Shown piece by piece: positions 17,422 through 29,003 of a stretch of DNA of 29,119 nt (positions within the stretch are counted from its first letter, which is position 1; every line of letters begins with the position of its first letter). A model generated the notes under the pieces. It did not search any database, was not told the DNA's origin, and saw only the letters and a program-made list of their open reading frames with translations. A program made the position numbers and the translations under genes. The stretch is taken from positions 1-29,119 of the IMG/VR virus record IMGVR_UViG_3300043420_001189. The stretch is one strand, 5' to 3'. Source of the stretch: a virus.

Positions 17422-17531
17422 TCCCCCAAATGAGGGGTCTTGAGCGGGGGCGACCCCTCGCTAGGGGGGTGCTAGCAAATCCTGTACCAAAGTTTTGGCA
17501 TGAAACTTGCACGAGCAAACCCTGTGCCAAA
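17422..17531. repeat. Intergenic cassette copy 1
   Basis: The most elaborate copy. A variant first hairpin (CCCCC...GGGG) is followed by the canonical second one (GACCCCTC-GCTA-GGGGGG, ending 17470). Then come a minus-strand sigma-54-like box (AGCAAATCCTGTACCAAA, 17474-17491), a plus-strand one (TTGGCATGAAACTTGCA) and a second minus-strand box (AGCAAACCCTGTGCCAAA, 17514-17531). Confidence 0.85.
17494..17531 (+). promoter_or_regulatory. Sigma-54-like site forming a dyad with its neighbour
   Basis: TTGGCATGAAACTTGCA has GG and GC exactly 10 bp apart, the sigma-54 -24/-12 rule, pointing at the zinc-ribbon gene (predicted start about 17522). It faces an opposite-strand copy, so the whole reads TTTGGCA...TTGC-acga-GCAA...TGCCAAA, a long dyad. 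A binding site for a dimeric regulator is the alternative reading. Confidence 0.5.
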
Positions 17532-17559
17532 AAAATCGCAAAAAAAACTTTTTTTCTAG

Positions 17560-17588
17560 TTGACAGGCTCAAGTCTACTCTGTAAAAT
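17560..17588 (+). promoter_or_regulatory. Sigma-70 promoter, CTCAAG class
   Basis: TTGACA, 17-bp spacer containing CTCAAG, TAAAAT, followed by GTAGATAT and a conserved AAGAAGTAAGG leader. It is 43 nt before the zinc-ribbon miniprotein gene. Confidence 0.85.
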
Positions 17589-17630
17589 GTAGATATAAGA
17601 AGTAAGGAAAGAAAGAAAAGGAAAAAGAAA

Positions 17631-17756
17631 ATGAAGTTCACCGAAACGGTTAGCGAATGCTGCAACTCGATCCTCTCGCCTGAGCAAGAGCAGATCGGTA
17701 TCTGCCCTCACTGTGGCGAACACTGCTCGATCATCGTGGAAGAGTGGGAAGAATAA
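17631..17756 (+). CDS. Zinc-ribbon miniprotein (CCN/CPxCxxHC family)
   Basis: 41 aa: a CCN pair, about 13 residues, then CPHCGEHC and an acidic end. The two cysteine groups probably bind one zinc. AAGGAAA precedes the ATG. The same CCN...CPxCxxHC pattern returns in the protein encoded at 19032, so the two are paralogues or share a fold. The role is unknown; small zinc ribbons of early phage regions often bind host proteins or nucleic acid. Confidence 0.75.
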   Translation: MKFTETVSECCNSILSPEQEQIGICPHCGEHCSIIVEEWEE

Positions 17757-17782
17757 AAATCCAAAAAAATCTTCTCAAGCAC

Positions 17783-17811
17783 TTGACAAGAAAAAGCCGA
17801 TACTGTAGAAT
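17783..17811 (+). promoter_or_regulatory. Sigma-70 promoter with CGATA in spacer
   Basis: TTGACA, 17-bp spacer ending GCCGATACTG, TAGAAT. No hairpin cassette precedes it, unlike most promoters here. Confidence 0.8.
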
Positions 17812-17838
17812 AGAGAAAACGAAGCAAAGGAAAAAACA

Positions 17839-18018
17839 ATGACCAACTTCATCACATTTTTTGACGCTCAGGGAAACGAACTCGACGTGGTTCCATTCAA
17901 CGGCACCAACAACCCTGCTGAACAGATTACCAGTATCGTCGATGACGCTCATGGGATGGCCGTTCGTTTTGAGATTGAAGACGAGGAAGGATTCGTCTAC
18001 CATCGTGGCGTCTGTTAA
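17839..18018 (+). CDS. Small acidic hypothetical protein
   Basis: 59 aa, not recognised. It has a beta-type start (MTNFITFFDAQGNELDVVPF) and then alternating acidic and hydrophobic residues (VRFEIEDEEGFVYHRGVC). AAAGGA lies 8 nt upstream of the ATG and a promoter 28 nt upstream, so it is a single-gene unit. Cassette copy 2 starts 9 nt after its stop. Confidence 0.7.
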   Translation: MTNFITFFDAQGNELDVVPFNGTNNPAEQITSIVDDAHGMAVRFEIEDEEGFVYHRGVC

Positions 18019-18026
18019 CATACCCT

Positions 18027-18096
18027 ACCCCTCGCAAGGGGGGTCCGGGCCGGTCGCGACCCCTCGCTAGGGGGGTCTAGCAAAAGCTGTGCCAAA
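18027..18096. repeat. Intergenic cassette copy 2
   Basis: Hairpin 1 ACCCCTC-GCAA-GGGGGGT (a GNRA loop), linker CCGGGCCGGTCGC, hairpin 2 GACCCCTC-GCTA-GGGGGGTC, then the box AGCAAAAGCTGTGCCAAA (18079-18096). On the minus strand the box reads TTGGCAC-AGCTT-TTGCT, with a predicted start in the hairpin-2 loop (about 18068). Confidence 0.9.
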
Positions 18097-18123
18097 AAAT
18101 CGCAAAAAAAACTTTTTTTCTAG

Positions 18124-18152
18124 TTGACAGACTCAAGTTCAGTCCGTAAAAT
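18124..18152 (+). promoter_or_regulatory. Sigma-70 promoter, CTCAAG class
   Basis: TTGACA, 17-bp spacer with CTCAAG, TAAAAT, then GTCGATATAAGAAGTAAGG. It is nearly the same as the promoter at 17560 and serves the 65-aa protein gene. Confidence 0.85.
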
Positions 18153-18196
18153 GTCGATATAAGAAGTAAGGGACAAGAAAGAAAGGGAAAAAGAAA

Positions 18197-18394
18197 ATGG
18201 CTAATGCTACTAAAAACCTGTTCACTGCTACCGTCTATGATGTCTTTGGTGAAGAGATTGACACGCTCACCGGAACGGATATCCTCGACCTTGAGAAGAG
18301 AGTATGGTCGCTCTGGAGTGGCAGCGATTGGGCTGTCACCTATACCATTAGTGACGACCTCGGCGCAGAACTCATCTGCGAATCACTGGACTAG
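18197..18394 (+). CDS. Duplicated 65-aa protein family, copy A
   Basis: 65 aa. It is paralogous to the protein encoded at 20158: both have an NAT.xLxTAxVxD N-terminus, a GEEIDTLTG / GETIDVLTG turn, an identical VWSLWSGS core and an ESLD/ESLE end. The pattern of short beta strands around a central Leu/Glu-rich helix suggests a compact alpha/beta fold. GGGAAA lies upstream of the ATG. The duplication includes the upstream promoter region and the promoter downstream. Function unknown. Confidence 0.8.
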   Translation: MANATKNLFTATVYDVFGEEIDTLTGTDILDLEKRVWSLWSGSDWAVTYTISDDLGAELICESLD

Positions 18395-18403
18395 TGTTCA
18401 GTA

Positions 18404-18431
18404 TTGACAAGCCAAAAAAATCTGCTAGACT
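18404..18431 (+). promoter_or_regulatory. Sigma-70 promoter, A-tract class
   Basis: TTGACA, 16-bp A-rich spacer, TAGACT, 9 nt past a stop codon. Its upstream flank GTGTTCAGTATTGACA is repeated almost exactly before the promoter at 20365. It lacks CGATA and the hairpin cassette. Confidence 0.75.
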
Positions 18432-18460
18432 TAGGAAAACGAAAGAAAAGGAAAGAAAGA

Positions 18461-18688
18461 ATGAGATTCAACACCTACAATACCTACAGTTCTCCCGACT
18501 ACGGTCGCTATCGTCGTCATGCCCATATCTTCCTTGGATGGGATGCCAGTTTCAAGGCTGATGGACAGCGTTGGACCTGGAAACTTCGCCCTCACCTTGA
18601 AACAAAGATGGACGCCGAAGACGCAATCTTTGAGCGATTCCCAAACGCTACTGAAATCAAACTTCGCAAGATCATTTGTGAGGAATAA
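18461..18688 (+). CDS. Hypothetical basic aromatic protein
   Basis: 75 aa from the ATG after a GGAAAGAAAG leader; upstream in-frame codons lie within the promoter. It is Tyr/Arg/His-rich at the start (RFNTYNTYSSPDYGRYRRHA), then FLGWDASFKADGQRWTWKLR and an ED-rich helix. It is not recognised. Possibly a nucleic-acid binder from its basic aromatic surface, but no motif confirms this. Confidence 0.7.
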   Translation: MRFNTYNTYSSPDYGRYRRHAHIFLGWDASFKADGQRWTWKLRPHLETKMDAEDAIFERFPNATEIKLRKIICEE

Positions 18689-18691
18689 AAC

Positions 18692-18763
18692 GTGACAACA
18701 ACCATTGTTGCAGTGGTGTGGGTTGTATTCTGTTGGGCTATACTATTGAGGACAAACCTATGA
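18692..18763 (+). CDS. Tiny membrane peptide (GTG start)
   Basis: A 23-aa frame that is almost one hydrophobic helix (TTTIVAVVWVVFCWAILL, then RTNL). It starts with GTG 3 nt after the previous stop, with GAGGAA overlapping that stop. Its TGA overlaps the next ATG (ATGA). The arrangement, with a good ribosome site and coupling, suggests a real single-pass peptide, but it is below the size at which coding can be judged by eye. Confidence 0.35.
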   Translation: MTTTIVAVVWVVFCWAILLRTNL

Positions 18764-18852
18764 ACGATGGCGATATGGATGTTGTTTGTGTTATGTTGTT
18801 TCTTTCTTGCGTTATTGTTTCTATTTTTTATTGTTATACTCCTATCTGTTAA
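18760..18852 (+). CDS. Tiny membrane peptide
   Basis: A 30-aa frame: short acidic N-terminus (MNDGDMDVV) then one hydrophobic segment (CVMLFLSCVIVSIFYCY). GAGG lies 8 nt before the ATG, which overlaps the preceding stop as ATGA. A second frame starting at 18767 is also hydrophobic but lacks a ribosome site and runs into the hairpin repeat. Small phage membrane peptides often act on host envelope functions; that is a guess here. Confidence 0.4.
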   Translation: MNDGDMDVVCVMLFLSCVIVSIFYCYTPIC

Positions 18853-18861
18853 CACACCCCC

Positions 18862-18934
18862 ACCCCTCGCAAGGGGGGTCCGGGCCGGGCGCGACCCCTC
18901 GCTAGGGGGGTCTACTAGCAAACCCTGTGCCAGA
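18862..18934. repeat. Intergenic cassette copy 3
   Basis: Hairpin 1 with GCAA loop, linker CCGGGCCGGGCGC, hairpin 2 with GCTA loop, then the box AGCAAACCCTGTGCCAGA (18917-18934), read on the minus strand as CTGGCAC-AGGGT-TTGCT. Confidence 0.9.
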
Positions 18935-18964
18935 AAAAAAACAAAAAAAACTTGACCGAGGGAC

Positions 18965-18992
18965 TTGACCGAGCCGATACAGAGAGTATACT
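18965..18992 (+). promoter_or_regulatory. Sigma-70 promoter with CGATA in spacer
   Basis: TTGACC, 16-bp spacer containing GCCGATA, TATACT. A second CTTGACCGAG lies 16 bp upstream, giving a short direct repeat over the -35. Confidence 0.8.
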
Positions 18993-19031
18993 TGAGACAT
19001 GGTAACCAACCCCACTAACGGAGACTCACTC

Positions 19032-19205
19032 ATGAGCATCGCCTTCGAAACCCGTCAGATCGAGGAAACCTATGTCGAAGTTCAGGTCGCAACTAGCGGC
19101 TGCTGCAACGTGTTCCTGAACGACACCGAGGTAGAATATGAAGTCTGCCCGTGCTGCAAGGATCACTGTGAGGTGGTTCTCGATTACATGCCCGTTCAAC
19201 TGTGA
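19032..19205 (+). CDS. Zinc-ribbon protein (CCN/CPxCxxHC family)
   Basis: 57 aa from the ATG preceded by GGAG; an in-frame ATG at 18999 lies at the predicted transcription start and has no ribosome site. The protein has VEVQVATSGCCNVFLND, then YEVCPCCKDHCEVVLDY. The CCN pair and CPxCxxHC group, 13 residues apart, match the miniprotein encoded at 17631. It is likely a one-zinc ribbon; the function is unknown. Confidence 0.75.
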   Translation: MSIAFETRQIEETYVEVQVATSGCCNVFLNDTEVEYEVCPCCKDHCEVVLDYMPVQL

Positions 19206-19216
19206 GGAGTAAACCT

Positions 19217-19417
19217 ATGTTCAACATTGAAAACAATGGCCCATACTTTCAGGCTGCGATGGAAGCTATGACTGATCAAGAGATCACCACCTCGATGAGG
19301 GGGGCTCAAGATGCGTTGCCTAATCCAACGATCAGTACTGCATACCGTACACTACTGCGGTGCATTATCATCGAAGGTGCAACCGAGTTACGAAAGCGTT
19401 GGTTTCCGGCCCACTAG
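19217..19417 (+). CDS. Hypothetical helical protein
   Basis: 66 aa with a GAGGAG ribosome site overlapping the region just after the previous stop, so it is co-transcribed with the zinc-ribbon gene. Sequence: FQAAMEAMTDQEITTSMRGA, then AYRTLLRCIIIEGATELRKR, two probable amphipathic helices. No family recognised. Confidence 0.65.
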   Translation: MFNIENNGPYFQAAMEAMTDQEITTSMRGAQDALPNPTISTAYRTLLRCIIIEGATELRKRWFPAH

Positions 19418-19450
19418 TGTAAACCTGTATACCCGCCCGATTGAGGGACT

Positions 19451-19573
19451 ACCCCTCTTTCGGGGGGTCCGGGCCGGTCACGACCCCTCGCTGGGGGGGT
19501 GCTAACAAATGTCGTACCAAAACCAAAAAGCTAGGTTTGGCATGGTATTTGCACGAGCAAACGGTGTGTCAGA
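19451..19573. repeat. Intergenic cassette copy 4
   Basis: Hairpins with TTTC and GCTG loops, followed by three box-like sites as in copy 1. A diverged minus box (19504-19521), a good plus-strand TTGGCATGGTATTTGCA site (GG at 19539-19540, GC at 19551-19552), and a diverged minus box (19556-19573) form a dyad. The left flank CCCGATTGAGGGACTA is shared with copy 5. Confidence 0.85.
19536..19573 (+). promoter_or_regulatory. Second sigma-54-like plus-strand site in a dyad
   Basis: TTTGGCATGGTATTTGCA keeps GG-N10-GC; the predicted start is about 19564. As in copy 1 it faces an opposite-strand half, here weakened (GTGTGTCAG). ACGAGCAAAC between the halves is conserved with copy 1. Confidence 0.45.
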
Positions 19574-19598
19574 AAAAACTTTTTGTGGATTTTGGCTG

Positions 19599-19626
19599 TT
19601 GACCTGGACGATAAAGAGTGTAGAAT
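19599..19626 (+). promoter_or_regulatory. Sigma-70 promoter with CGATA in spacer
   Basis: TTGACC, spacer TGGACGATAAAGAGTG, TAGAAT. The same 16-bp spacer recurs at 24383 and, with one change, at 29044. The leader carries a CCGCC/GGCGG stem before the gene. Confidence 0.85.
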
Positions 19627-19695
19627 AACGAAGATCCCGCCAACACTGAGAGGCGGATACTAGGTCTAATCAGAGCATCACAAGGAGAACCAACC

Positions 19696-19953
19696 ATGTA
19701 CAAATGCGTTATCACCACATTCTTTGGTCCATGTGGCGGCGAAGGTGGATATGGTTCTATCACCCAAATCGGTATGGACCGCTGCTCCCCAAAGCGGGCC
19801 GTATGGAAAGCCTCTCACTGGAGCGTCTCTGATGGCAAGGCCACCAGAAACTATATCAACCAACAGCCTTGGGGGGCTGGTGGTGGCGTACCAATTCTTG
19901 GGCACTTCCAACTCATAAAGGATAACAAAGTCATAAAGGAGGTTTGGGATTAG
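19696..19953 (+). CDS. Hypothetical protein, glycine-rich alpha/beta
   Basis: 85 aa after AAGGAGA. The sequence MYKCVITTFFGPCGGEGGYG, then KRAVWKASHWSVSDGKATRN and a GAGGGVPILGHFQLIKDNK end suggests a small beta-rich domain with exposed Gly loops. No family recognised. It stands alone between cassette copies 4 and 5 and has a long 69-nt leader with a stem. Confidence 0.65.
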   Translation: MYKCVITTFFGPCGGEGGYGSITQIGMDRCSPKRAVWKASHWSVSDGKATRNYINQQPWGAGGGVPILGHFQLIKDNKVIKEVWD

Positions 19954-19988
19954 GTCTTTAATCACTTTTATGGCCCGATTGAGGGACT

Positions 19989-20059
19989 ACCCCCTCTTTC
20001 GGGGGGTCCGGGCCGGGCGCGACCCCTCGCTAGGGGGGTCTAGCAAAAGCTGTGCCAAA
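19989..20059. repeat. Intergenic cassette copy 5
   Basis: Canonical copy: first hairpin with TTTC loop (GAAA on the other strand), linker CCGGGCCGGGCGC, second hairpin with GCTA loop and the box AGCAAAAGCTGTGCCAAA (20042-20059). The A/T tract after it matches copy 2. Predicted minus-strand start about 20031, in the hairpin-2 loop. Confidence 0.9.
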
Positions 20060-20086
20060 AAAATCGCAAAAAAAACTTTTTTCTAG

Positions 20087-20115
20087 TTGACACGCTCAAG
20101 AAAATCTGCTCTATT
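20087..20115 (+). promoter_or_regulatory. Sigma-70 promoter, CTCAAG class, weak -10
   Basis: TTGACA, spacer with CTCAAG, then a weak -10 (TCTATT) followed by GTCGATAT. It aligns with the promoter at 18124 of the paralogous gene. Confidence 0.65.
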
Positions 20116-20157
20116 GTCGATATGACAAGTAGGAAACAGTTCTCGAAAGGAAATGAA

Positions 20158-20355
20158 ATGAGCAACGCAACTGAAACCCTGTACACCGCACATGTTCATG
20201 ACTGCTATGGTGAAACCATCGACGTTCTAACTGGAAGCAATATCATCGAACTAGAGCGACAAGTGTGGTCCCTCTGGAGTGGTAGTGAACAGGCTACCAC
20301 CTACACTCTCAGTGATTCTTGTGGCGTAGAACTAGCCTATGAATCACTGGAATAG
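20158..20355 (+). CDS. Duplicated 65-aa protein family, copy B
   Basis: 65 aa, paralogue of the protein encoded at 18197 with the same length and VWSLWSGS core; differences include two cysteines (HDCYGE, DSCGVE). The ATG follows AAGGAAATGA; an in-frame ATG 36 nt upstream lies next to the promoter and lacks a ribosome site. The similarity extends past the stop through GTGTTCAGTATTGACA, but the genes after the two copies are unrelated. Confidence 0.8.
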   Translation: MSNATETLYTAHVHDCYGETIDVLTGSNIIELERQVWSLWSGSEQATTYTLSDSCGVELAYESLE

Positions 20356-20364
20356 TGTTCAGTA

Positions 20365-20393
20365 TTGACAGCCACAAAAAAGTTTTGTAGACT
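20365..20393 (+). promoter_or_regulatory. Sigma-70 promoter, A-tract class
   Basis: TTGACA, 17-bp A/T-rich spacer, TAGACT, 9 nt after a stop codon. It is the counterpart of the promoter at 18404 in the other duplicated block. Confidence 0.8.
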
Positions 20394-20430
20394 CAGCGTA
20401 TCAATGAAACCAACCCCAAGGAAAACGAAG

Positions 20431-20742
20431 ATGACCTTCAACGAAGAACTCGCAACGCAACTCCTCGCCCAAGCAACTGAGGTTCGCAAGGCTCACCCCC
20501 TAGTGGAAGGGGATGACTTTTTCGATGTGATGGAAGAATGGGACGCATTCGAAGATGATGGTGGGGAATGCGAATATGATCCTATCATGAGTGAGGATTA
20601 CTATCGCAACTGGCTTGCAAAACGAGAAACCAAACGAGCAGAGAAGACTGCCGCTGACCATGAGGCTGAAACGCGAGCGAAGACGCTGGCGTTCTATATG
20701 AACGAAGACAACATACTGAACGAACGTTCACTGTGGGACTGA
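20431..20742 (+). CDS. Acidic hypothetical protein
   Basis: 103 aa from the ATG after AAGGA with 8-nt spacing; an upstream ATG at 20404 has no ribosome site. Central part is strongly acidic (GDDFFDVMEEWDAFEDDGGE) and the C-terminal half is a charged helix (LAKRETKRAEKTAADHEAET). No family recognised. The acidic middle recalls other acidic products in this arm (21610, 26767). Confidence 0.7.
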   Translation: MTFNEELATQLLAQATEVRKAHPLVEGDDFFDVMEEWDAFEDDGGECEYDPIMSEDYYRNWLAKRETKRAEKTAADHEAETRAKTLAFYMNEDNILNERSLWD

Positions 20743-20786
20743 ACACCTGATCACTGTACGCATGTACACCCCACCACCTAGGGAGG

Positions 20787-20839
20787 AACCCCCTCCTTTG
20801 GGGGGTTGGGGCCGGGGACGACCCCTCAGGCGGGGGGTT
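20787..20839. repeat. Intergenic cassette copy 6 (no sigma-54-like box)
   Basis: Hairpin 1 AACCCCC...GGGGGGTT, linker TGGGGCCGGGGAC, hairpin 2 GACCCCTC-AGGC-GGGGGGTT. The last two T are the first two bases of the TTGACA -35, so the hairpin abuts the promoter and the box is absent. TGTACGCATGTACA lies 20 nt to the left. Confidence 0.85.
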
Positions 20840-20866
20840 GACAGCCTCAAGAATATTTGGTATAAT
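20838..20866 (+). promoter_or_regulatory. Consensus sigma-70 promoter, CTCAAG class
   Basis: TTGACA, 17-bp spacer with CTCAAG, perfect TATAAT, then GTCGATATAGAAAGTAAGG. It is probably the strongest promoter of the window by sequence; its -35 overlaps the cassette hairpin. Confidence 0.9.
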
Positions 20867-20895
20867 GTCGATATAGAAAGTAAGGAGAAAGAAAG

Positions 20896-21099
20896 ATGCA
20901 CATTAGGGCAACACTTCACGCTGAGAAGATAGCCAAAGAACAGGGCTGTGAGGAAAAGTATGTGGGTCAAGATGGTTGCTATAGGGGGTGTATCAAATAC
21001 ACCTATCTGATTGGCGATACTTATTACAAGTTCAACGAAAGTGGTGTACTATTGATCAGTTATCCCAGCAAAGCAGCGATGAAAGAAAAATCTGCTTGA
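20896..21099 (+). CDS. Hypothetical protein
   Basis: 67 aa after AAGGAG. It has an N-terminal helix (HIRATLHAEKIAKEQGCEEK), a Cys/Gly stretch (QDGCYRGCIKYTYLIGDTYY) and a basic end. Three cysteines are present. No family recognised. Its TGA stop lies inside the -35 of the next promoter. Confidence 0.7.
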   Translation: MHIRATLHAEKIAKEQGCEEKYVGQDGCYRGCIKYTYLIGDTYYKFNESGVLLISYPSKAAMKEKSA

Positions 21100-21123
21100 C
21101 AAGTCAAAAAAGTTTGGTATACT
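21096..21123 (+). promoter_or_regulatory. Sigma-70 promoter with stop codon inside -35
   Basis: TTGACA, 16-bp A-tract spacer, TATACT. The TGA of the upstream gene is bases 2-4 of the -35. Confidence 0.8.
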
Positions 21124-21163
21124 TGAATCATCATCAGTAACCCTCTATCTGGAGAAACACAAC

Positions 21164-21373
21164 ATGAATGAAGATTACGGCTTTTTCGGGGCTTGCGACG
21201 ACGTTCCTGCGCCAGCCATCCAGTCGGTGGCGCAAGTTTACCACGAGCCGCAAGGCGACCGCTCTCACCCCGCAGATTGGGGGTGGCCAGATTGGTGGGG
21301 TTCTTTTGGTTATGGGGATTCCTACATCCCACCACGCCACGAGTGGCCGGAAGGGTGGAAACCCGCAAGGTGA
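21164..21373 (+). CDS. Tryptophan-rich small protein
   Basis: 69 aa after CTGGAGAA. Seven tryptophans cluster in DWGWPDWWGSFGYGDSYIPP and HEWPEGWKPAR, with many Pro and Asp. The composition is unusual and the protein is probably largely unstructured or a binding peptide. A clear promoter and ribosome site argue that it is translated. No family recognised. Confidence 0.65.
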   Translation: MNEDYGFFGACDDVPAPAIQSVAQVYHEPQGDRSHPADWGWPDWWGSFGYGDSYIPPRHEWPEGWKPAR

Positions 21374-21377
21374 CCGA

Positions 21378-21417
21378 TGTACACCGGTGTACAGGCATGA
21401 TGGTGTACAACTGTACA
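21378..21417. promoter_or_regulatory. TGTACA palindrome cluster
   Basis: A perfect 16-bp palindrome TGTACACCGGTGTACA is followed 10 bp later by TGTACAACTGTACA, giving four TGTACA words. It sits between the Trp-rich gene and cassette copy 7 and looks like an operator for a dimeric regulator; as RNA the first part would form a 6-bp stem with CCGG loop. Confidence 0.55.
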
Positions 21418-21438
21418 CTATCTTCAACACAGGTACAC

Positions 21439-21512
21439 AACCCCTCCTTCGGGGGATTCGGGCCGGGCGGAACCCCTCGCAAGGGGGGAGCACAAGCAAA
21501 AGCTGTGCCAAA
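21439..21512. repeat. Intergenic cassette copy 7
   Basis: Hairpin 1 has a UUCG-type loop (CTCCTTCGGGGG), the linker is TCGGGCCGGGCGG, hairpin 2 has a GCAA loop. The box AGCAAAAGCTGTGCCAAA (21495-21512) equals that of copies 2 and 5. Confidence 0.9.
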
Positions 21513-21541
21513 AAAACTTTTCTTTTTCTAGATTTTGTGTG

Positions 21542-21569
21542 TTGACATGGCCGATAAGCTTTGTAGAAT
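21542..21569 (+). promoter_or_regulatory. Sigma-70 promoter with CGATA in spacer
   Basis: TTGACA, spacer TGGCCGATAAGCTTTG, TAGAAT; serves the acidic protein gene 41 nt downstream. Confidence 0.85.
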
Positions 21570-21609
21570 GAAAGCATAACCAACACCCATTACTCTGGAA
21601 ACCGATCCT

Positions 21610-21948
21610 ATGACACCATATCCAAGAATCAACAGTTTTGAGATTGACCCCGCCCGATTTTCTGCTATGATCGAAGAGTTCCGAGCCTATTCTGAGACTG
21701 AGGAGAAGAAAATGCCGAACGATTATGAAGAAATGGAACAGGAAAGTCGTATTTACCCTTGGATTGATGACGAGGGGCAAGAATGGGTCGACAACTGGGA
21801 TTTGGGGGACGATGAAGATTATGATGACGATGAAGATTGGGACGAAGAATATGAATATGAATATGATGGTCAACCGTCAGAGTACACCGAGTGGCAGGAT
21901 TACATGGGCGGTGACGATTGGGATCATGGGCAGTATGACGAATACTGA
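21610..21948 (+). CDS. Strongly acidic protein
   Basis: 112 aa. After an N-terminal helix (ARFSAMIEEFRAYSETEEKK) the rest is an Asp/Glu/Tyr/Trp-rich tract (DLGDDEDYDDDEDWDEEYEY) with almost no Lys or Arg. Such surfaces occur in phage DNA-mimic inhibitors, but also in disordered proteins. A second ATG at 21712 has a better ribosome site (GAGGAG), so a shorter 78-aa form may be made. No family recognised. Confidence 0.7.
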   Translation: MTPYPRINSFEIDPARFSAMIEEFRAYSETEEKKMPNDYEEMEQESRIYPWIDDEGQEWVDNWDLGDDEDYDDDEDWDEEYEYEYDGQPSEYTEWQDYMGGDDWDHGQYDEY

Positions 21949-21958
21949 ACACCCGCAC

Positions 21959-22031
21959 ACCCCCTCCTTTGGGGGGTCCGGGCCAGGGGCGACCCCTCAC
22001 ATTGGGGGTAGAATAGCAAGTCTTATGCCAA
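21959..22031. repeat. Intergenic cassette copy 8
   Basis: Hairpin 1 ACCCCC...GGGGGGT, linker CCGGGCCAGGGGC, hairpin 2 with ACAT loop, then the box AGCAAGTCTTATGCCAAA (22014-22031), on the minus strand TTGGCAT-AAGAC-TTGCT. The spacer differs while GG and GC are kept. Confidence 0.9.
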
Positions 22032-22062
22032 ATAAAAAAATAAAAATATTCTGAAGAAACTC

Positions 22063-22090
22063 TTGACTCTTTACCGATACTCTGTATAAT
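22063..22090 (+). promoter_or_regulatory. Sigma-70 promoter with CGATA in spacer
   Basis: TTGACT, spacer CTTTACCGATACTCTG, TATAAT. Confidence 0.85.
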
Positions 22091-22114
22091 GAGATCATCG
22101 CAAGGAGATGAAAA

Positions 22115-22435: not shown

Positions 22436-22439
22436 GGTG

Positions 22440-22468: not shown

Positions 22469-22497
22469 AGGAAGACCCCAAGGAAAAGGATAGAAAA

Positions 22498-22881: not shown

Positions 22882-22892
22882 GACGATACCCT

Positions 22893-22943
22893 ACCCCCTC
22901 TTCCGAGGGGTGCGGGCCGGGGGGGACCCCTCATTGTGGGGAT
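22893..22943. repeat. Intergenic cassette copy 9 (no box)
   Basis: Hairpin 1 CCTC-TTCC-GAGG restores a Watson-Crick U-A pair where other copies have U-G. Linker GCGGGCCGGGGGG; hairpin 2 GACCCC...GGGG with a long loop. The sigma-54-like box is absent. Confidence 0.85.
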
Positions 22944-22973
22944 ATAAAAATCAGAAAAATCTTCAAGGAAGGC

Positions 22974-23001
22974 TTGACACCATGTCGATACTAGGTATAA
23001 T
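22974..23001 (+). promoter_or_regulatory. Sigma-70 promoter with CGATA in spacer
   Basis: TTGACA, spacer CCATGTCGATACTAGG, TATAAT; the leader is 54 nt long. Confidence 0.85.
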
Positions 23002-23466: not shown

Positions 23467-23495
23467 GATGATAGTCAGCCAGTCAGCCAGTTTCT

Positions 23496-23566
23496 ACCCC
23501 ACTTTTGGGGGATCCGGGCCGGGGGAGACCCCTCGCCCGGGGGGTATCAGCAAACCGTGTGCCAAA
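23496..23566. repeat. Intergenic cassette copy 10
   Basis: Hairpin 1 CCCCA-CTTT-TGGGG (an A-U pair in the stem), linker CCGGGCCGGGGGA, hairpin 2 with GCCC loop, box AGCAAACCGTGTGCCAAA (23549-23566): minus strand TTGGCAC-ACGGT-TTGCT. Confidence 0.9.
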
Positions 23567-23597: not shown

Positions 23598-23625
23598 TTG
23601 ACACTGACGATATACTCTGTATAAT
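23598..23625 (+). promoter_or_regulatory. Sigma-70 promoter with CGATA in spacer
   Basis: TTGACA, spacer CTGACGATATACTCTG, TATAAT; followed by three coupled genes. Confidence 0.88.
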
Positions 23626-24024: not shown

Positions 24025-24040
24025 TTCAAGGGGAGAAACT

Positions 24041-24247: not shown

Positions 24248-24290
24248 CCATTAAACCACAGCTCCCCAACTGAAAGAAATAGCTCTTTCG

Positions 24291-24351
24291 GGGGGTTGGG
24301 GCGGGCCCGGACCCCTCATTAAGGGGGTACTACAGCAAACCGTATGCCAAA
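24291..24351. repeat. Intergenic cassette copy 11, core inverted
   Basis: The linker reads GGGGCGGGCCCGGACCCC, the reverse-complement orientation of the usual GGGGTCCGGGCC, so the hairpin core seems flipped. The first stem is diverged and instead a longer hairpin forms with the left flank (CCCCAAC/GTTGGGG outside, GAAAGA/TCTTTC inside). The box AGCAAACCGTATGCCAAA (24334-24351) keeps its normal direction. Confidence 0.8.
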
Positions 24352-24382
24352 AAATATTTTTCTTTTTCCTGGATTTTGGGTA

Positions 24383-24410
24383 TTGACGTGGACGATAAAG
24401 AGTGTAGAAT
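24383..24410 (+). promoter_or_regulatory. Sigma-70 promoter with CGATA in spacer
   Basis: TTGACG, spacer TGGACGATAAAGAGTG (identical to the promoter at 19599), TAGAAT. Confidence 0.85.
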
Positions 24411-24435
24411 GAGAGCATCACGAGGAGCAATGACA

Positions 24436-24699
24436 ATGAAAACGGTCAAAGTTGGCATGGTTAAAACCAAGAAGAATGAATATTCTCGGGTTGTTGAGTT
24501 TGAGAATGGATATGGTGCGAGTATTATCTCTCATGATTTTTCCTATGGTGGCACTACTGGCCTATTTGAAGTAGGAGTTCTGCACGATGGGATTCTGGTC
24601 TATGATACGCACATCACAGAAGATACGATTGGTTGGCTTGACTTTGCTGGTGTTGCTGCTATACTGAAGGATATTGAGGAACTTCCCCCAAGGAACTAG
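24436..24699 (+). CDS. Hypothetical protein
   Basis: 87 aa from the second of two close ATGs; GAGGAG is 8 nt before it but only 2 nt before the first. Beta-rich (KVGMVKTKKNEYSRVVEFEN, GLFEVGVLHDGILVYDTHIT) with a helical end (FAGVAAILKDIEELP). The strand order recalls small phage proteins of unknown role. No family named with confidence. Confidence 0.7.
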   Translation: MKTVKVGMVKTKKNEYSRVVEFENGYGASIISHDFSYGGTTGLFEVGVLHDGILVYDTHITEDTIGWLDFAGVAAILKDIEELPPRN

Positions 24700-24703
24700 A
24701 ACT

Positions 24704-25042
24704 ATGCAGACTTACAACGGTTACGCTAACTATGAAACTTGGCTGGTTTCAGTGTGGATTGATAATGATCAGTATACTATTAACCATTGGGTTGATGTAG
24801 CAAAACATCACTATAATATCTCAGAAGACCGGAAGTATTTCACCAAGAAAGAAGAGGCTATTATATCATTCTCTGAAGATATGAAAGAATGGTATGGTGA
24901 TTCTGTGCCAGACTCGGATAAGATTGGTGGATTGTTCAGTGATTTGTTACATGCTGCACTTGGTAGTGTAGATTGGCATGAACTGGCTGGAAAGTATATG
25001 GATCAGTATTTAGAGAGTGTTACAGAAAAGGAAGGTGCTTAG
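24704..25042 (+). CDS. YNGYxNYETW-family phage protein
   Basis: 112 aa. The opening MQTYNGYANYETWLVSVWID, then NDQYTINHWVDVAK is the mark of a small family widespread in phages and their hosts (xYNGxxNYxTWxVxLWIxND); its function is not established. The rest is acidic and helical (FSEDMKEWYGDSVPDSDKIG, then LFSDLLHAALGSVDWHEL, which resembles the family's usual end). AAGGA is upstream, 4 nt after the previous stop. Confidence 0.75.
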   Translation: MQTYNGYANYETWLVSVWIDNDQYTINHWVDVAKHHYNISEDRKYFTKKEEAIISFSEDMKEWYGDSVPDSDKIGGLFSDLLHAALGSVDWHELAGKYMDQYLESVTEKEGA

Positions 25043-25043
25043 T

Positions 25044-25436
25044 ATGTATGGCTATTTTGTTTTGGCTGGTATTGTTTGTGCTATCGCTGGTTTCGTTTGG
25101 TTTAATCTTTATTATGGTGTGCGTGGAGACTTGAAGAATGCTAGAGAGGGTGAGGTTTATCATTTTCGATATCTTCAGCCTGCAACTGGTGATTCTGAAA
25201 GGCATATGGTTAAGGTACTAAAGAATGTAACTCTAACGGATGAACAGATTAGAAAGTTGAATGCCCGTTCAAAGTATAGGCGGTTTGATAATAGTTTCCG
25301 TCGTACTAATCATCTGATTACTGGTCAGAGTGCTAATGGTCAGATCCGTAACTTTTATGCTGAAAGGGTTGATGGTTGTCGTAGGTCTGGAGTAGGTCGG
25401 CTTGCCTTTAGCATGGGTATTGCTAATCTGCTTTAG
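25044..25436 (+). CDS. Single-pass membrane protein
   Basis: 130 aa from the ATG just after the previous stop, with AAGGTG upstream. Residues 4-24 (YFVLAGIVCAIAGFVWFNLY) form one N-terminal transmembrane helix, probably leaving a basic soluble domain (KVLKNVTLTDEQIRKLNARS, then FDNSFRRTNHLITGQSANGQ). No family recognised. The strong positive charge of the soluble part suggests a cytoplasmic side. Confidence 0.7.
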   Translation: MYGYFVLAGIVCAIAGFVWFNLYYGVRGDLKNAREGEVYHFRYLQPATGDSERHMVKVLKNVTLTDEQIRKLNARSKYRRFDNSFRRTNHLITGQSANGQIRNFYAERVDGCRRSGVGRLAFSMGIANLL

Positions 25437-25463
25437 TATTAAACCCGCCTCTCAAGGGAGACT

Positions 25464-25514
25464 ACCCCTCCTTTGGGGGGTCGGGGCCGGACGGGACCCC
25501 TCGCAAGGGGGGTT
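25464..25514. repeat. Intergenic cassette copy 12 (no box)
   Basis: Hairpin 1 ACCCC...GGGGGGT, linker CGGGGCCGGACGG, hairpin 2 with GCAA loop whose 3' end runs into TTGACA at 25513, as in copy 6. GGGAGACTACCCC at the left resembles the flank of copies 4 and 5. A clear -10 at the right distance from that -35 is missing. Confidence 0.85.
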
Positions 25515-25584
25515 GACAAAAAAAGTTTTTTATGTACTCAAGTTTCGACTATGGATGGTCGATACTATTTCTAGGGGAAATCAC

Positions 25585-25613
25585 TTGACAACGGAGTATA
25601 GATATGATAGAAT
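25585..25613 (+). promoter_or_regulatory. Candidate promoter overlapping a gene start
   Basis: TTGACA, 17 bp, TAGAAT is a good match, but the -10 lies over the start codons of the Gln/Tyr-rich gene. Either it serves a shorter form of that gene or the real promoter is the TTGACA at 25513 with CTCAAG and GTCGATAC nearby. Confidence 0.45.
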
Positions 25614-25876
25614 CAATCGCAGTGGTGGGGATGATTTTGGGTCTGATCAAGAGTCAACAACCAGTTCAACCACAACCTTATTATTACCCTCAACAGCAAC
25701 AACAACAGTATTATTACCCTCAACAGCAGTATTATTATGTCCCGCAGCAACCGCAACAATACTATTACCCTCAAAGTCCGCAAGCAGTGGGAAGTCCCTA
25801 CGGGCCACAGGGAGGATCGCAAGGTTACTACTATGGACAGCCGCCCCAAGCGACAACGTACCAGACAGGGGGTTGA
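25604..25876 (+). CDS. Gln/Tyr/Pro-rich low-complexity protein
   Basis: 90 aa. A short hydrophobic N-terminus (MIESIAVVGMILGLIKSQQP) is followed by about 65 residues made mostly of Gln, Tyr and Pro, with repeated YYYPQQQ units and a Gly-rich end. The composition resembles prion-like or adhesive low-complexity tails; the N-terminus could be a membrane anchor. GGAG lies 9 nt upstream. An in-frame ATG at 25631 is an alternative start. The stop TGA is inside the -35 of the tRNA-Gln promoter. Confidence 0.65.
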   Translation: MIESIAVVGMILGLIKSQQPVQPQPYYYPQQQQQQYYYPQQQYYYVPQQPQQYYYPQSPQAVGSPYGPQGGSQGYYYGQPPQATTYQTGG

Positions 25877-25901
25877 CAGGGCTTGGCGAAAAGACTATAA
25901 T
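25873..25901 (+). promoter_or_regulatory. Promoter of tRNA-Gln, stop codon inside -35
   Basis: TTGACA, 17-bp spacer, perfect TATAAT, 14 nt before the tRNA. The TGA of the Gln/Tyr-rich gene lies in the -35. Confidence 0.85.
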
Positions 25902-25915
25902 GTAGATTAGTCTAT

Positions 25916-25986
25916 TCGGGGGTGGTGTAACGGTAGCACAAAGGATTTTGGTTCCTTTTGTCGGGGTTCGAATCCCTGCCCCCGAG
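25916..25986 (+). tRNA. tRNA-Gln (TTG)
   Basis: Folds as a cloverleaf: 7-bp acceptor TCGGGGG/CCCCCGA, D arm GTGT/GCAC, anticodon stem AAGGA/TCCTT with loop TTTTGGT (anticodon TTG), T arm CGGGG/CCCTG with TTCGAAT loop, discriminator G. CCA is not encoded. It reads CAA codons, which are frequent in the Gln-rich gene just upstream. Confidence 0.9.
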
Positions 25987-25999
25987 TCTTTTGTCTTTC

Positions 26000-26017
26000 C
26001 TAATCCTAAAGGATTGG
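26000..26017 (+). terminator. Hairpin after tRNA-Gln
   Basis: A 7-bp stem CTAATCC/GGATTGG with TAAA loop, 14 nt past the tRNA. There is no T run after it, so it may be a processing or stabilising hairpin rather than a full terminator. Confidence 0.4.
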
Positions 26018-26050
26018 CTAGGATGGCGATAGTCAGCGAAAAAACTTATC

Positions 26051-26100
26051 ACCCATTAGGGGGGTTGTGGGCGGCCCGGACCCCTCGGCAGGGGGGTATC
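26051..26100. repeat. Intergenic cassette copy 13, core inverted (no box)
   Basis: A short first stem ACCC...GGGT; the linker GTGGGCGGCCCGGACCCC is in the reverse orientation, as in copy 11; hairpin 2 GACCCCTC-GGCA-GGGGGG. No sigma-54-like box follows. Confidence 0.8.
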
Positions 26101-26124
26101 AACTTTTTTCTAAGGTTATGGGGC

Positions 26125-26152
26125 TTGACAAGCCGATAACAGTTGGTAGAAT
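26125..26152 (+). promoter_or_regulatory. Sigma-70 promoter with CGATA in spacer
   Basis: TTGACA, spacer AGCCGATAACAGTTGG, TAGAAT. Confidence 0.85.
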
Positions 26153-26172
26153 GAGAGAAAAGGAGATTGCTC

Positions 26173-26373
26173 ATGCAAGTAGTTAGAGTTGAGTTTGTTA
26201 CTCACTATGCTGATGTACAGGAAGCAGTTGACGTTGTATCATCAATGCTTCCAAATCTTAGGGTGTTCCCGGGTTCCCGTATGGAGTCTTGGAATATTTA
26301 TAGTGTTGATGAAACCGTTCTTACCAAAGTAAGCCACCCCGTTGAAGATGGAAAGGTTATCAAGAATGTCTAA
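26173..26373 (+). CDS. Hypothetical alpha/beta protein
   Basis: 66 aa from the ATG with AAGGAG 7-8 nt upstream. The beta-alpha-beta pattern VVRVEFVTHYADVQEAVDVV, SSMLPNLRVF, WNIYSVDETVLTKV suggests a small ferredoxin-like fold. No family recognised. Its stop overlaps the next gene start. Confidence 0.65.
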   Translation: MQVVRVEFVTHYADVQEAVDVVSSMLPNLRVFPGSRMESWNIYSVDETVLTKVSHPVEDGKVIKNV

Positions 26374-26626
26374 GAAAATCATTATTGAGTTTAGTGGTTG
26401 GGTTGAGTGTGATAGTGATAAGGTTATGTTTGTATCACTTATTAATGATAGTGTTATTACTGGCACTGAATGGTTGAAACTTTCCCAAGATGAGCAAGAT
26501 GACTATATTTTGGAAGACTGTATTGAGGCACAGAAAACAGCACTAGATGGTTCATATGAACATATGGACATTATTATTCAGAATGAGGATGGTAGTGAGG
26601 TAACTGCTAACAGAACCTACTCTTGA
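26366..26626 (+). CDS. Hypothetical protein
   Basis: 86 aa, start overlapping the preceding stop (ATGTCTAA). Beta strands at the front (KKIIIEFSGWVECDSDKVMF), then WLKLSQDEQDDYILEDCIEA helix. Acidic. No family recognised. Its TGA lies within the -35 of the tRNA-Lys promoter. Confidence 0.65.
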   Translation: MSKKIIIEFSGWVECDSDKVMFVSLINDSVITGTEWLKLSQDEQDDYILEDCIEAQKTALDGSYEHMDIIIQNEDGSEVTANRTYS

Positions 26627-26651
26627 CAACTAGCCTTGCCCATGCTATAAT
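26623..26651 (+). promoter_or_regulatory. Promoter of tRNA-Lys, stop codon inside -35
   Basis: TTGACA, 17-bp spacer, perfect TATAAT, 9 nt before the tRNA. No CGATA and no cassette. Confidence 0.88.
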
Positions 26652-26660
26652 GGGCTAAAC

Positions 26661-26733
26661 GGGTCGCTAACTCAATCGGTAGAGTATCGGTCTTTTAAAC
26701 CGTCGGTTCAGGGTTCGAGTCCCTGGCGACCCA
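26661..26733 (+). tRNA. tRNA-Lys (TTT)
   Basis: Cloverleaf with acceptor GGGTCGC/GCGACCC, D arm ACTC/GAGT, anticodon loop CTTTTAA (anticodon TTT), T arm CAGGG/CCCTG, discriminator A, no encoded CCA. The first anticodon-stem pair is a U-U mismatch. No terminator separates it from the next gene. Confidence 0.9.
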
Positions 26734-26766
26734 TGTTTGTTTCATTTCACTTCAAGGAGAATCATC

Positions 26767-26970
26767 ATGAGTGGAAATAGTTATGTGGAAGAGGTTTTCA
26801 ACCAAGAGGATTATGAGCATGAGTTTGGGCGTGTCGTATCGGATAGTGAAGAGTTTTCCTATGATGATGAACTGTTCGATTACGCAGATTCAGAGCGACA
26901 GGAAGTTGCAAACCTTGAAGAAGAGTATCGTAGTTGGTGGGAAAACGAAATGAAAAGTGGGAATAAATAA
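26767..26970 (+). CDS. Acidic hypothetical protein
   Basis: 67 aa after AAGGAGA. Strongly acidic (SDSEEFSYDDELFDYADSER, then EEEYRSWWENEM) with few basic residues. It starts 34 nt after the tRNA-Lys end and shares its transcript. No family recognised; another acidic candidate for protein or nucleic-acid mimicry. Confidence 0.7.
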   Translation: MSGNSYVEEVFNQEDYEHEFGRVVSDSEEFSYDDELFDYADSERQEVANLEEEYRSWWENEMKSGNK

Positions 26971-26993
26971 GTTTTTCTTTGAAAGGAGAGAGT

Positions 26994-27134
26994 ATGAAGA
27001 TTGTTGGAATCGGAACCGAACTCGCATTGGGGACGGTTGTTAGTATTACTCGCAATGGCGTTGTTGTTGACCGTCAAGGTAAGAGCGTTATTGTATCTTT
27101 TTCGGATGTAGAAACCGAAGTGTTTGGTACTTAA
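26994..27134 (+). CDS. Small beta-barrel-like protein
   Basis: 46 aa with a strong AAAGGAGAG ribosome site. Sequence IGTELALGTVVSITRNGVVV, DRQGKSVIVSFSDVETEVFG reads as five short strands like a minimal SH3/KOW barrel. No family confirmed. It is the last gene before cassette copy 14. Confidence 0.6.
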   Translation: MKIVGIGTELALGTVVSITRNGVVVDRQGKSVIVSFSDVETEVFGT

Positions 27135-27149
27135 CATAAAGCCCCAAAC

Positions 27150-27247
27150 GATCCCCCTCCTCTGGGGGGTCGGGGCCGGGCGGCACCCCTCAAATGGGGG
27201 GGTGTGCCGTTTATCTCGGAAGTTGCCCTAGCAAACCCTGTGCCAAA
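27150..27247. repeat. Intergenic cassette copy 14
   Basis: Hairpin 1 GATCCCCC...GGGGGGTC; linker CGGGGCCGGG; hairpin 2 is extended by an outer CGGCAC/GTGtGCCG stem with AAAT loop. An extra 20 bp precede the box AGCAAACCCTGTGCCAAA (27230-27247), so its predicted minus-strand start (about 27219) lies ahead of both hairpins. Confidence 0.88.
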
Positions 27248-27276
27248 TAAAAAAACTTTTTTCTGATGGTTGGGGC

Positions 27277-27304
27277 TTGACTTTGCCGATGATACTGGTA
27301 CAAT
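27277..27304 (+). promoter_or_regulatory. Sigma-70 promoter with CGATG in spacer
   Basis: TTGACT, spacer TTGCCGATGATACTGG, TACAAT; the motif has one change from CGATA. Confidence 0.8.
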
Positions 27305-27328
27305 AGGAACACACACGAGGAGTTAACT

Positions 27329-28033
27329 ATGAAAACTGCTGAAGGTAATGATAAACTCGGCAAGAACTGTATCGTTGTATCTCGTCCCGTGGGCAAAACT
27401 TGTCCACCGTCTTGCGTTTTTCTTGGCAACGGATGTTATGCCGAAGCGACCGAGAATCAGTATAAAAACGCTCGCACCGCAGCGTTTAATAATGTTATAA
27501 CTGAGAAGGGTCGTATTCGTTCTATGATTCTTGATGCTATTAAGCGTGACAAGAGTATCCGATGGCACGAACGTGGAGACTGGTTCAATGATGGAGTATT
27601 GGACACGGATTATGTTAATAATGTTTGTGCTGCTTGTGAATCTGTTATCGAGTCGGGCTATACTCTACCCGATATGTGGTTTTACACTCATATTTATGAT
27701 TCTCGATTGGCTGCTATGAACAAGTATATGGCAGTATATGCTAGTGTTCATAATGCTGATGATATGATTGCTGCTAAACTTGCAGGCTTTACATTGTTTG
27801 CATGGTGTGACAGCGATATGGCTATTGCACCAAAGCGTCCCCGTGGTAAAATCAAGAAAGCAGCATGGCAAGCCGCATTACCCAAACTTGTGGTACTGGA
27901 AGGCGAGCATTTTGTTACTTGTCCAGAGATTCGCAAGGGCCGCACGTTTGTTACTTGCACTGGCACTAAAGAGGGCAAGGCTTGTAATATGTGTGTTACT
28001 GGTAAGAAGAATGTACTATTCCCCTGTCATTGA
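27329..28033 (+). CDS. GP88-like cysteine-rich phage protein
   Basis: 234 aa. NDKLGKNCIVVSRPVGKTCP, then PSCVFLGNGCYAEATEN is the N-terminal pattern of the GP88-like phage proteins (conserved CPxxCxxxxxxCYA). Further Cys at VCAAC, TCPEIRKG, TCTGTKEG and CNMCVTG total a dozen, suggesting zinc or iron-sulphur sites. Histidine and Trp motifs (IRWHERGDWF) lie centrally. The function of the family is not established; a radical-SAM-like link has only been considered for related proteins. GAGGAG is upstream; it heads a four-gene unit. Confidence 0.75.
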   Translation: MKTAEGNDKLGKNCIVVSRPVGKTCPPSCVFLGNGCYAEATENQYKNARTAAFNNVITEKGRIRSMILDAIKRDKSIRWHERGDWFNDGVLDTDYVNNVCAACESVIESGYTLPDMWFYTHIYDSRLAAMNKYMAVYASVHNADDMIAAKLAGFTLFAWCDSDMAIAPKRPRGKIKKAAWQAALPKLVVLEGEHFVTCPEIRKGRTFVTCTGTKEGKACNMCVTGKKNVLFPCH

Positions 28034-28042
28034 GGTATTGTT

Positions 28043-28180
28043 ATGACACTTGAAGATTTGCGAACAGTGATGAATGATATATTTCCACACTGGGTGGAGA
28101 TTGAAACAGACGATAGCGGTGAGATTATTGTTCGCACGGGTTTAGTTTCCAACAATGGTATTCTTGAGGAGTTAGAATAA
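28043..28180 (+). CDS. Small acidic protein
   Basis: 45 aa: MTLEDLRTVMNDIFPHWVEI, then ETDDSGEIIVRTGL and an LEELE end. It looks like a helix followed by a beta hairpin. GAGG lies 7 nt before the ATG, and its stop overlaps the next start (TAATG). No family recognised. Confidence 0.6.
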   Translation: MTLEDLRTVMNDIFPHWVEIETDDSGEIIVRTGLVSNNGILEELE

Positions 28181-28395
28181 TGCAGATTAACAGTTATAGT
28201 TATGTTACTCTTGAAGATTTTGTGGATGCCCACGAACTAGACCTGTATGATGTTGATGATATTCTTTTGAATAGTGATTACAGTTATGGTACTAATGATG
28301 ATACTTTGGTAGAGTATCATGCTTTATGCAATCTATGCGGTATTCGTCCTCTTGCTGGTTATAGTGTAGGCCTTATGGTATCTTTGGGGAGTTAG
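28180..28395 (+). CDS. Hypothetical acidic protein
   Basis: 71 aa, start overlapping the preceding stop (TAATG) with GAGGAG upstream. Asp/Tyr-rich middle (LDLYDVDDILLNSDYSYGTN) and a CNLC pair (ALCNLCGIR). No family recognised. Confidence 0.6.
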   Translation: MQINSYSYVTLEDFVDAHELDLYDVDDILLNSDYSYGTNDDTLVEYHALCNLCGIRPLAGYSVGLMVSLGS

Positions 28396-28397
28396 TA

Positions 28398-28856
28398 ATG
28401 TTTGAGATTGTAAATAGCGGTAGTGAGTGTACGTTGTTTCGTACTAAGATGGGGCTATTCAAAGAGTATTGTAGTAAGTCTCATGCTGTTGAGGCACACT
28501 ATATTCAAAGTGAACTAGCGTCTATGAATCTAGCTCCTGAAGTTTATAGTAGAGTTTGTAGGGTTAGAATGCCCGAGGGTAATCTTTCTAGTTATGGTTT
28601 TTATACCGAGGAGGCTGAACCGTTAAAGCTGTGTGATTGTGACTATTATTGTTATTGTCCTATGAAAACAGAGGGGGCTAGACTTGCACTGTGCGAAACG
28701 GTAGAATACTGGACTGGTTGGGAGTTTGTAGACTTCCACGAAGGTAACTTTGGATATATCGAAAGGGATGGATTGAAACTTTTGGCTATTATTGATTGCG
28801 GACACAAGGGTTTTGTTATGGAGAAGAATATGGTAGAAAATACATGCCAATATTGA
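28398..28856 (+). CDS. Kinase-like fold protein
   Basis: 152 aa. FVDFHEGNFGYI, then GLKLLAIIDCG resembles the catalytic loop (H-x-x-N) and metal-binding Asp (IDxG) of protein-kinase/aminoglycoside-kinase-like folds. The upstream HAVEAHYIQSELASMNLAPE is the helix-to-hinge pattern of such proteins. The glycine loop and N-lobe lysine are not obvious, so it may be a reduced or inactive form. A Cys cluster CDCDYYCYC sits in the middle. It follows the preceding gene by 2 nt, with GGGGAG upstream. Confidence 0.55.
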   Translation: MFEIVNSGSECTLFRTKMGLFKEYCSKSHAVEAHYIQSELASMNLAPEVYSRVCRVRMPEGNLSSYGFYTEEAEPLKLCDCDYYCYCPMKTEGARLALCETVEYWTGWEFVDFHEGNFGYIERDGLKLLAIIDCGHKGFVMEKNMVENTCQY

Positions 28857-28888
28857 TTATTATTTTGATACTATTGATGAAAGATTGA
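28844..28888 (+). CDS. Possible 14-aa hydrophobic peptide
   Basis: A short frame MPILIIILILLMKD overlaps the end of the kinase-like gene. It is almost purely hydrophobic; the ribosome site is weak. Too short to call with confidence. Confidence 0.2.
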   Translation: MPILIIILILLMKD

Positions 28889-28929
28889 TTATATGTTTAC
28901 ATTCCAGAACTGGCCGCCAAGGATGCAAA

Positions 28930-29003
28930 GACCCCCTCCGTTGGGGGGTCGCGGCCGGGGGGGACCCCTCTGTGGGGGGGTAGGCAGCAAATCCCGTGCC
29001 AAA
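28930..29003. repeat. Intergenic cassette copy 15
   Basis: Hairpin 1 GACCCCC...GGGGGGTC, linker GCGGCCGGGGGG, hairpin 2 GACCCCTC-TGT-GGGGGG, box AGCAAATCCCGTGCCAAA (28986-29003): minus strand TTGGCAC-GGGAT-TTGCT. Confidence 0.9.

Follow-up and report, generated by a model that had tools for sequence, protein, structure and literature searches.

A repeated early-promoter cassette with a sigma-54-type box and paired palindromes, possibly modular, in an uncultured phage

What kind of element recurs, copy after copy, between the small genes in the right part of IMG/VR virus record IMGVR_UViG_3300043420_001189? The window analysed here is that entire record (29,119 bases), probably a fragment of a large phage's genome, and the element is a cassette of paired palindromes, box and promoter. 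Our preferred reading, to which we assign a probability of about 0.55, is that it is a modular early-promoter cassette that incorporates a sigma-54-type site and resembles the promoter early stem-loop (PeSL) cassettes of T4-type phages.

A repeat search of the window recovered a single family of 15 copies, each 56 nt long, ungapped and in register, between positions 17418 and 28984 (15 copies in 11.6 kb), with 68–100% identity to the reference and a copy-to-copy spacing of 520–1779 nt. The initial annotation had placed a 15-fold cassette between genes at approximately 17.4–29.0 kb, and all 15 copies are indeed intergenic, on the plus strand like the early genes, with none inside a credible gene. 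Although the sequences of loops and linker vary, both loops are 4 nt, the linker is 14 nt and the palindromes are 32 bp apart in 15 of 15 copies, and the alignment is gap-free. Read rightwards, the order is two palindromes around a 14-bp GC-rich linker, usually an 18-bp box, an A/T tract and a sigma-70-like promoter. The box, annotated as a usual component, occurs in 11 of the 15 copies, being missing from copies 6, 9, 12 and 13; in copies 1 and 4 it is triplicated as reverse-forward-reverse, with some members degenerate. The annotated sigma-70 promoter follows every copy, weakly at copies 5 and 12, and in the box-less copies 6 and 12 the second palindrome runs directly into TTGACA. Region-wide there are 62 sigma-70-like sites, versus 21.4 in shuffles, and cassette-less promoters occur at 17783, 18404, 20365, 21096, 22440, 23959 and 26623. 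Irregular spacing and the lack of terminal repeats, of a transposase and of any credible open reading frame (ORF) in the repeats led us to reject an insertion sequence, a miniature inverted-repeat transposable element (MITE) or a CRISPR (clustered regularly interspaced short palindromic repeats) array, in agreement with the earlier exclusion of insertion sequences and CRISPR.

On the minus strand the box reads TTTGGCACAGGGTTTGCT, with variants, and its consensus across relatives, TTTGGCAYRNNNTTTGCT, equals by sequence the textbook sigma-54 -24/-12 element, with GG at -24 and GC at -12 separated by 10 bp. The published RpoN consensuses are YTGGCACG-N4-TTGCW, from 186 promoters, and, for Geobacter, TTGGCACGGTTTTTGCT (PMC2725144). 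Exact matches to YTGGCAYR-N4-TTGCW number 12 in the window, versus 0.02 in shuffles; since these boxes are homologous copies, independent Escherichia coli data give a stronger test. With the lower quartile of the true sites as cut-off, a matrix derived from 42 intergenic sites that chromatin immunoprecipitation sequencing had identified for sigma-54 in E. coli (PMC4591121, Table 1) found 13 sites in the whole window against 1.1 expected; all 13 lie inside cassettes and 12 score at or above the median of the true E. coli sites. Relatives keep the GG, the GC and their spacing while the free positions vary; the correct spacing is seen in 56 distinct sites, any other spacing in 0–1.

The motif is not confined to the window. 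In IMG/VR, at least 118 stretches carry the box plus promoter, versus 8 with a one-base-longer spacer, and 93 carry the box in inverse orientation plus promoter. Boxes scoring like real sites also occur between genes in three Pseudomonas phages (phiPMW, SYP and UAVern) and in Aeromonas phage AhSzq-1, those of SYP and UAVern adjoining host-type promoters; Pseudomonas and Aeromonas are sigma-54-bearing genera. In phiPMW (L201:3590-4300) and UAVern (L203:2700-3500), sigma-54-like boxes occur as inverted pairs next to host-type promoters, within intergenic regions of ca. 700 bp with little or no annotation. Vibrio phage D120 (L204), one of a large group of similar Vibrio phages, has several near-consensus TTGGCAC boxes at 2001-2036, with a matched pair inside a short annotated ORF. 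Among annotated phages, the palindromic box pair matched 310 records, mostly from Vibrio and in an annotated coding region, and is therefore counted only cautiously; a control with the reversed sequence matched 49 records, of which none reached 80% coverage. A 21-mer of the forward box occurs in four Aeromonas phage records. Beyond this 21-mer, the whole cassette was found in no annotated phage, nor in any plasmid, and a literature search returned no paper describing phage sigma-54 boxes of this kind.

The box could instead be the site of another DNA-binding protein, of phage or host, its likeness to a sigma-54 site being coincidental. This reading is in keeping with a distance from the -35 that is similar whichever way the box faces, with the inverted pairs in other phages and with several small putative DNA-binding proteins that these phages carry (16694-16936; the D5-like product of 15022-15864). 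However, the agreement with sigma-54 is exact, in which positions are conserved and which are free, in the spacing and in the trailing W; the half-site lacks palindromic symmetry, and the same motif appears in distinct phages of sigma-54-bearing hosts. We consider a coincidental likeness rather unlikely.

The paired palindromes pose a separate question, because they had been read as two hairpins whose stems are kept while loops vary, as in a selected structure. That fold is not what the energy model favours: in the RNAalifold consensus and the minimum free energy folds of most copies tested, the outer arms 1 and 4 pair with each other, as do the inner arms 2 and 3, and the preferred structure is one long hairpin with internal loops, with weak z-scores (+0.4 to -2.6). 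The 15 window copies contain no two-sided (compensatory) changes for the two-hairpin fold, and a shuffle performs equally well. No U-tract follows the palindromes; terminator-like sites in the region number 8, versus 10.1 expected, with no forward one at a cassette. In relatives, the same position is held by palindromes of type A (CTGCCAAAATGGCAG; CTGCC-N5-GGCAG), type B (CCCC/GGGG, that of the window) or type C (CGTAAGT-N15-ACTTACG), types A and C each with essentially a single internal spacing and a single pair distance. The pair distance is 29 bp in type A (295 of 436), 53 bp in type C (210 of 262) and mostly 32 bp in type B, with more scatter; a GC-rich linker is present in the profiles of all three, and C-B and B-C hybrid cassettes occur. 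Arm pairing in 84 distinct C-type elements from relatives was 76.0%, versus 76.1% for shuffled columns, which lends no support to selection on a stem, and G-T and A-C mismatches were equally frequent (79 each), indicating no RNA-strand preference. In a smaller test, where partners were not selected, any excess of pairing was marginal at most. Independent half-sites locked in spacing point to DNA-protein recognition, by extension also for type B, and we infer from these patterns that the palindromes are candidate DNA operators for a regulator rather than RNA stems. In some A-type phages (L208, L260, L262) the second palindrome is merged with the box (CTGCCAAATTGGCAC...TTTGC); by its sequence, the A palindrome may derive from the -24 half of the box.

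An RNA role would take the form of tandem hairpins, or a single long one, that end or stabilise the upstream mRNA, with the promoter restarting transcription, as in a strict PeSL or terminator. Every copy lies between genes in the direction of transcription, the GC-rich stems do fold, unrelated palindrome families share one position, as a generic hairpin would, and PeSLs couple a stem-loop to an early promoter (PMC4503421). The missing U-tract and forward terminators, the lack of compensatory changes or of covariation in the C-family arms, and rigid loop, linker and pair spacings that RNA does not need make this distinctly unlikely, and we rejected selected RNA stems as the leading reading.

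Several observations weigh against a cassette with operators and a working sigma-54-type site. The box is missing from 4 of the 15 copies. In other phages it may face either way with respect to the sigma-70 promoter, and its direction in the window would give antisense RNA; for these last two reasons it probably does not serve phage genes as a promoter. Intragenic sigma-54 binding in E. coli proved to be no roadblock (PMC4591121). No enhancer-binding protein (PF00158) was found in 22 phage contigs searched, although such a protein could be supplied by the host. A host search through the terminase in GTDB genomes gave three metagenome-assembled genomes of unrelated phyla, an inconsistent result that we did not trust, so that the presence of RpoN is presumed. 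With no phage enhancer-binding protein found and no consistent host match, and with the box facing away from the gene, productive use as a phage promoter is unlikely. With regard to the palindromes, no protein binding them was identified, and the absence of covariation was tested mainly on those of relatives, the 15 window copies being too alike to decide.

How the cassette is distributed and inherited bears on its nature. The terminase has 141 relatives in IMG/VR, on contigs of up to 223 kb. Early promoters carry a motif of CGATA type (GCCGATA, GACGATA, GTCGATA and variants), placed either within the spacer or just past the -10; this holds for the promoters at 17560, 18124, 20838, 21542, 23598, 24383, 26125 and 29044 in the window and also for many relatives. 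Reverse-box sites with CGATA in the promoter have palindromes upstream in 62 of 66 distinct cases, whereas 33 of 44 without it have none. This co-occurrence indicates that the cassette belongs to one broad lineage, of which the CGATA-type motif is a marker, and that the box alone is used more widely; the motif may also be a further operator. A search for the A-type pair gave 65 viral stretches and no match among 398 sampled genomes from a single bacterial phylum. A search of 16 contigs, either large relatives or others bearing the cassette, found neither psbA nor ribosomal S21. Two relatives, G020 and G037, have orthologues of the window's early genes in permuted order, several of them preceded by cassettes. 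The copies of G020 are 85% alike within that genome and 62% alike to those of the window, and no clearly greater likeness is seen between orthologous cassettes than between others, suggesting concerted evolution, as expected if cassettes recombine. Repetition, intergenic location, homogenisation within genomes and, for the A-type pair, the lack of matches in those 398 bacterial genomes would also suit selfish or passively amplified repeats, of the REP or MITE type, with no regulatory role. Yet the positions of promoter and box are constrained, other phages replace the palindromes but retain the layout, cassettes stay upstream of several orthologous genes, and no terminal repeats or transposase were found, so that we regard passive amplification as very improbable.

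If the cassette is a regulated early promoter with a sigma-54-type site, each copy would most likely start a small early transcription unit from its usually strong sigma-70 promoter, for which the A/T tract could act as an UP element, and proteins on the paired palindromes and the box would control that promoter. Host RNA polymerase-sigma-54, or sigma-54 alone, might bind the box as a silent closed complex and would then compete with or modulate the adjacent sigma-70 early transcription, firing leftward only with an activator present. Near-identical cassettes may serve as recombination points, by which early genes would be gained, lost and reordered as modules of cassette plus gene, in the way proposed for the PeSLs of T4-type phages.

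In the window, late genes (terminase, portal, structural) lie in the left half on the minus strand, and the right part holds small rightward genes, two tRNA genes and the cassette repeat (Table 1); an Rfam scan of the window returned the two tRNAs and nothing else. Terminase and capsid gave weak matches to Bacillus and other phages, with none of T4 type among the matches listed. At the late/early junction, and conserved in relatives, adjoin a gene for a sigma-70 region-2-like protein (15842-16498, weak match) and one for a D5-like transcription regulator (15022-15864); the two may be a late sigma factor and its partner. Genes 18197-18394 and 20158-20355, both small and early, are paralogues; the sequences downstream of them are similar too (59 nt, 81%), and the pair represents a local duplication.

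Table 1. Positions of the cassette components in the window. Palindromes come from the repeat search and alignment, boxes (sigma-54-like) from the consensus pattern and the E. coli matrix, promoters (sigma-70-like) from a sigma-70 scan.
Copy	Feature	Position	Strand	Remark
1	Paired palindromes	17418..17473	+	First arm diverged
1	Box	17474..17490	-	TTGGTACAGGATTTGCT
1	Box, forward	17495..17511	+	TTGGCATGAAACTTGCA
1	Box	17514..17530	-	TTGGCACAGGGTTTGCT
1	Promoter	17560..17588	+	
2	Paired palindromes	18024..18079	+	
2	Box	18079..18095	-	
2	Promoter	18124..18152	+	
3	Paired palindromes	18859..18914	+	
3	Box	18917..18933	-	
3	Promoter	18965..18992	+	
4	Paired palindromes	19448..19503	+	
4	Box, forward	19537..19553	+	Between two degenerate reverse boxes
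4	Promoter	19599..19626	+	
5	Paired palindromes	19987..20042	+	
5	Box	20042..20058	-	
6	Paired palindromes	20786..20841	+	Box-less, abuts -35
6	Promoter	20838..20866	+	
7	Paired palindromes	21437..21492	+	
7	Box	21495..21511	-	
7	Promoter	21542..21569	+	
8	Paired palindromes	21957..22012	+	
8	Box	22015..22031	-	
8	Promoter	22063..22090	+	
9	Paired palindromes	22891..22946	+	Box-less
9	Promoter	22974..23001	+	
10	Paired palindromes	23493..23548	+	
10	Box	23549..23565	-	
10	Promoter	23598..23625	+	
11	Paired palindromes	24276..24331	+	First arm diverged
11	Box	24334..24350	-	
11	Promoter	24383..24410	+	
12	Paired palindromes	25461..25516	+	Box-less, abuts TTGACA
13	Paired palindromes	26045..26100	+	First arm diverged, box-less
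13	Promoter	26125..26152	+	
14	Paired palindromes	27150..27205	+	
14	Box	27230..27246	-	
14	Promoter	27277..27304	+	
15	Paired palindromes	28929..28984	+	
15	Box	28986..29002	-	TTGGCACGGGATTTGCT, exact consensus
15	Promoter	29044..29071	+	

The initial annotation knew of no described element with this layout; dozens of IMG/VR contigs share it, and T4-type phages have a close functional analogue, the PeSL cassette, reportedly treated by Arbiol in 2010 and Comeau in 2014. PeSLs combine a stem-loop with an early promoter (PMC4503421) and are the closest known kind: here too a repeated intergenic palindrome accompanies a host-type early promoter, densely packed among small early genes whose order is shuffled. 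The cassette differs in belonging to another phage lineage, in having, where a PeSL has its terminator stem-loop, two phased palindromes with a GC-rich linker between them, with no U-tract or intrinsic-terminator signature at the window cassettes, in the swapping of palindrome identity between lineages and in the added sigma-54-type box. For modular shuffling it would behave as a PeSL does, but because two defining features, a terminator signature and a T4-type phage, are lacking, we do not class it as one. With sigma-54 (RpoN) promoters the box shares TTGGCAYR-N4-TTGCW, the exact GG-N10-GC spacing and E. coli-like scores; as a candidate site it differs in being multi-copy in a phage, beside a sigma-70 promoter and mostly facing away from the gene, with no enhancer-binding protein gene in the 22 contigs. 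L5-type stoperators and the start-associated and extended start-associated sequences (SAS/ESAS) of mycobacteriophages are likewise many short, dispersed sites between phage genes tied to transcription, but their sequence, symmetry and attached promoter differ, and no repressor is known for the window cassette. Repetitive extragenic palindromes and bacterial interspersed mosaic elements (REP/BIME) are also dispersed intergenic palindromes at gene 3′ ends; the cassette, unlike them, is phage-borne and has fixed-spacing pairs plus promoter and box, with no REP-associated tyrosine transposase (RAYT) seen.

Phages are usually thought to begin with host sigma-70 promoters. We tentatively propose, at somewhat less than even odds, that the large uncultured phages of a widespread lineage carry host sigma-54 binding sites in a standard early cassette and, together with interchangeable paired operators, use them as a modular regulatory code, coupling early transcription to the host sigma-54 state and making gene modules exchangeable. 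If true, a multi-copy sigma-54-type site by each early promoter would be a new transcriptional link between host and phage, in many phages. The exchange of palindrome families at fixed spacing would offer a natural series for operator specificity, and the cassettes would add a new example, from beyond the T4-type phages, of modular shuffling mediated by repeats. That dozens of related phages have the same design with different palindromes suggests a reusable switch, with genes that can be swapped like building blocks.

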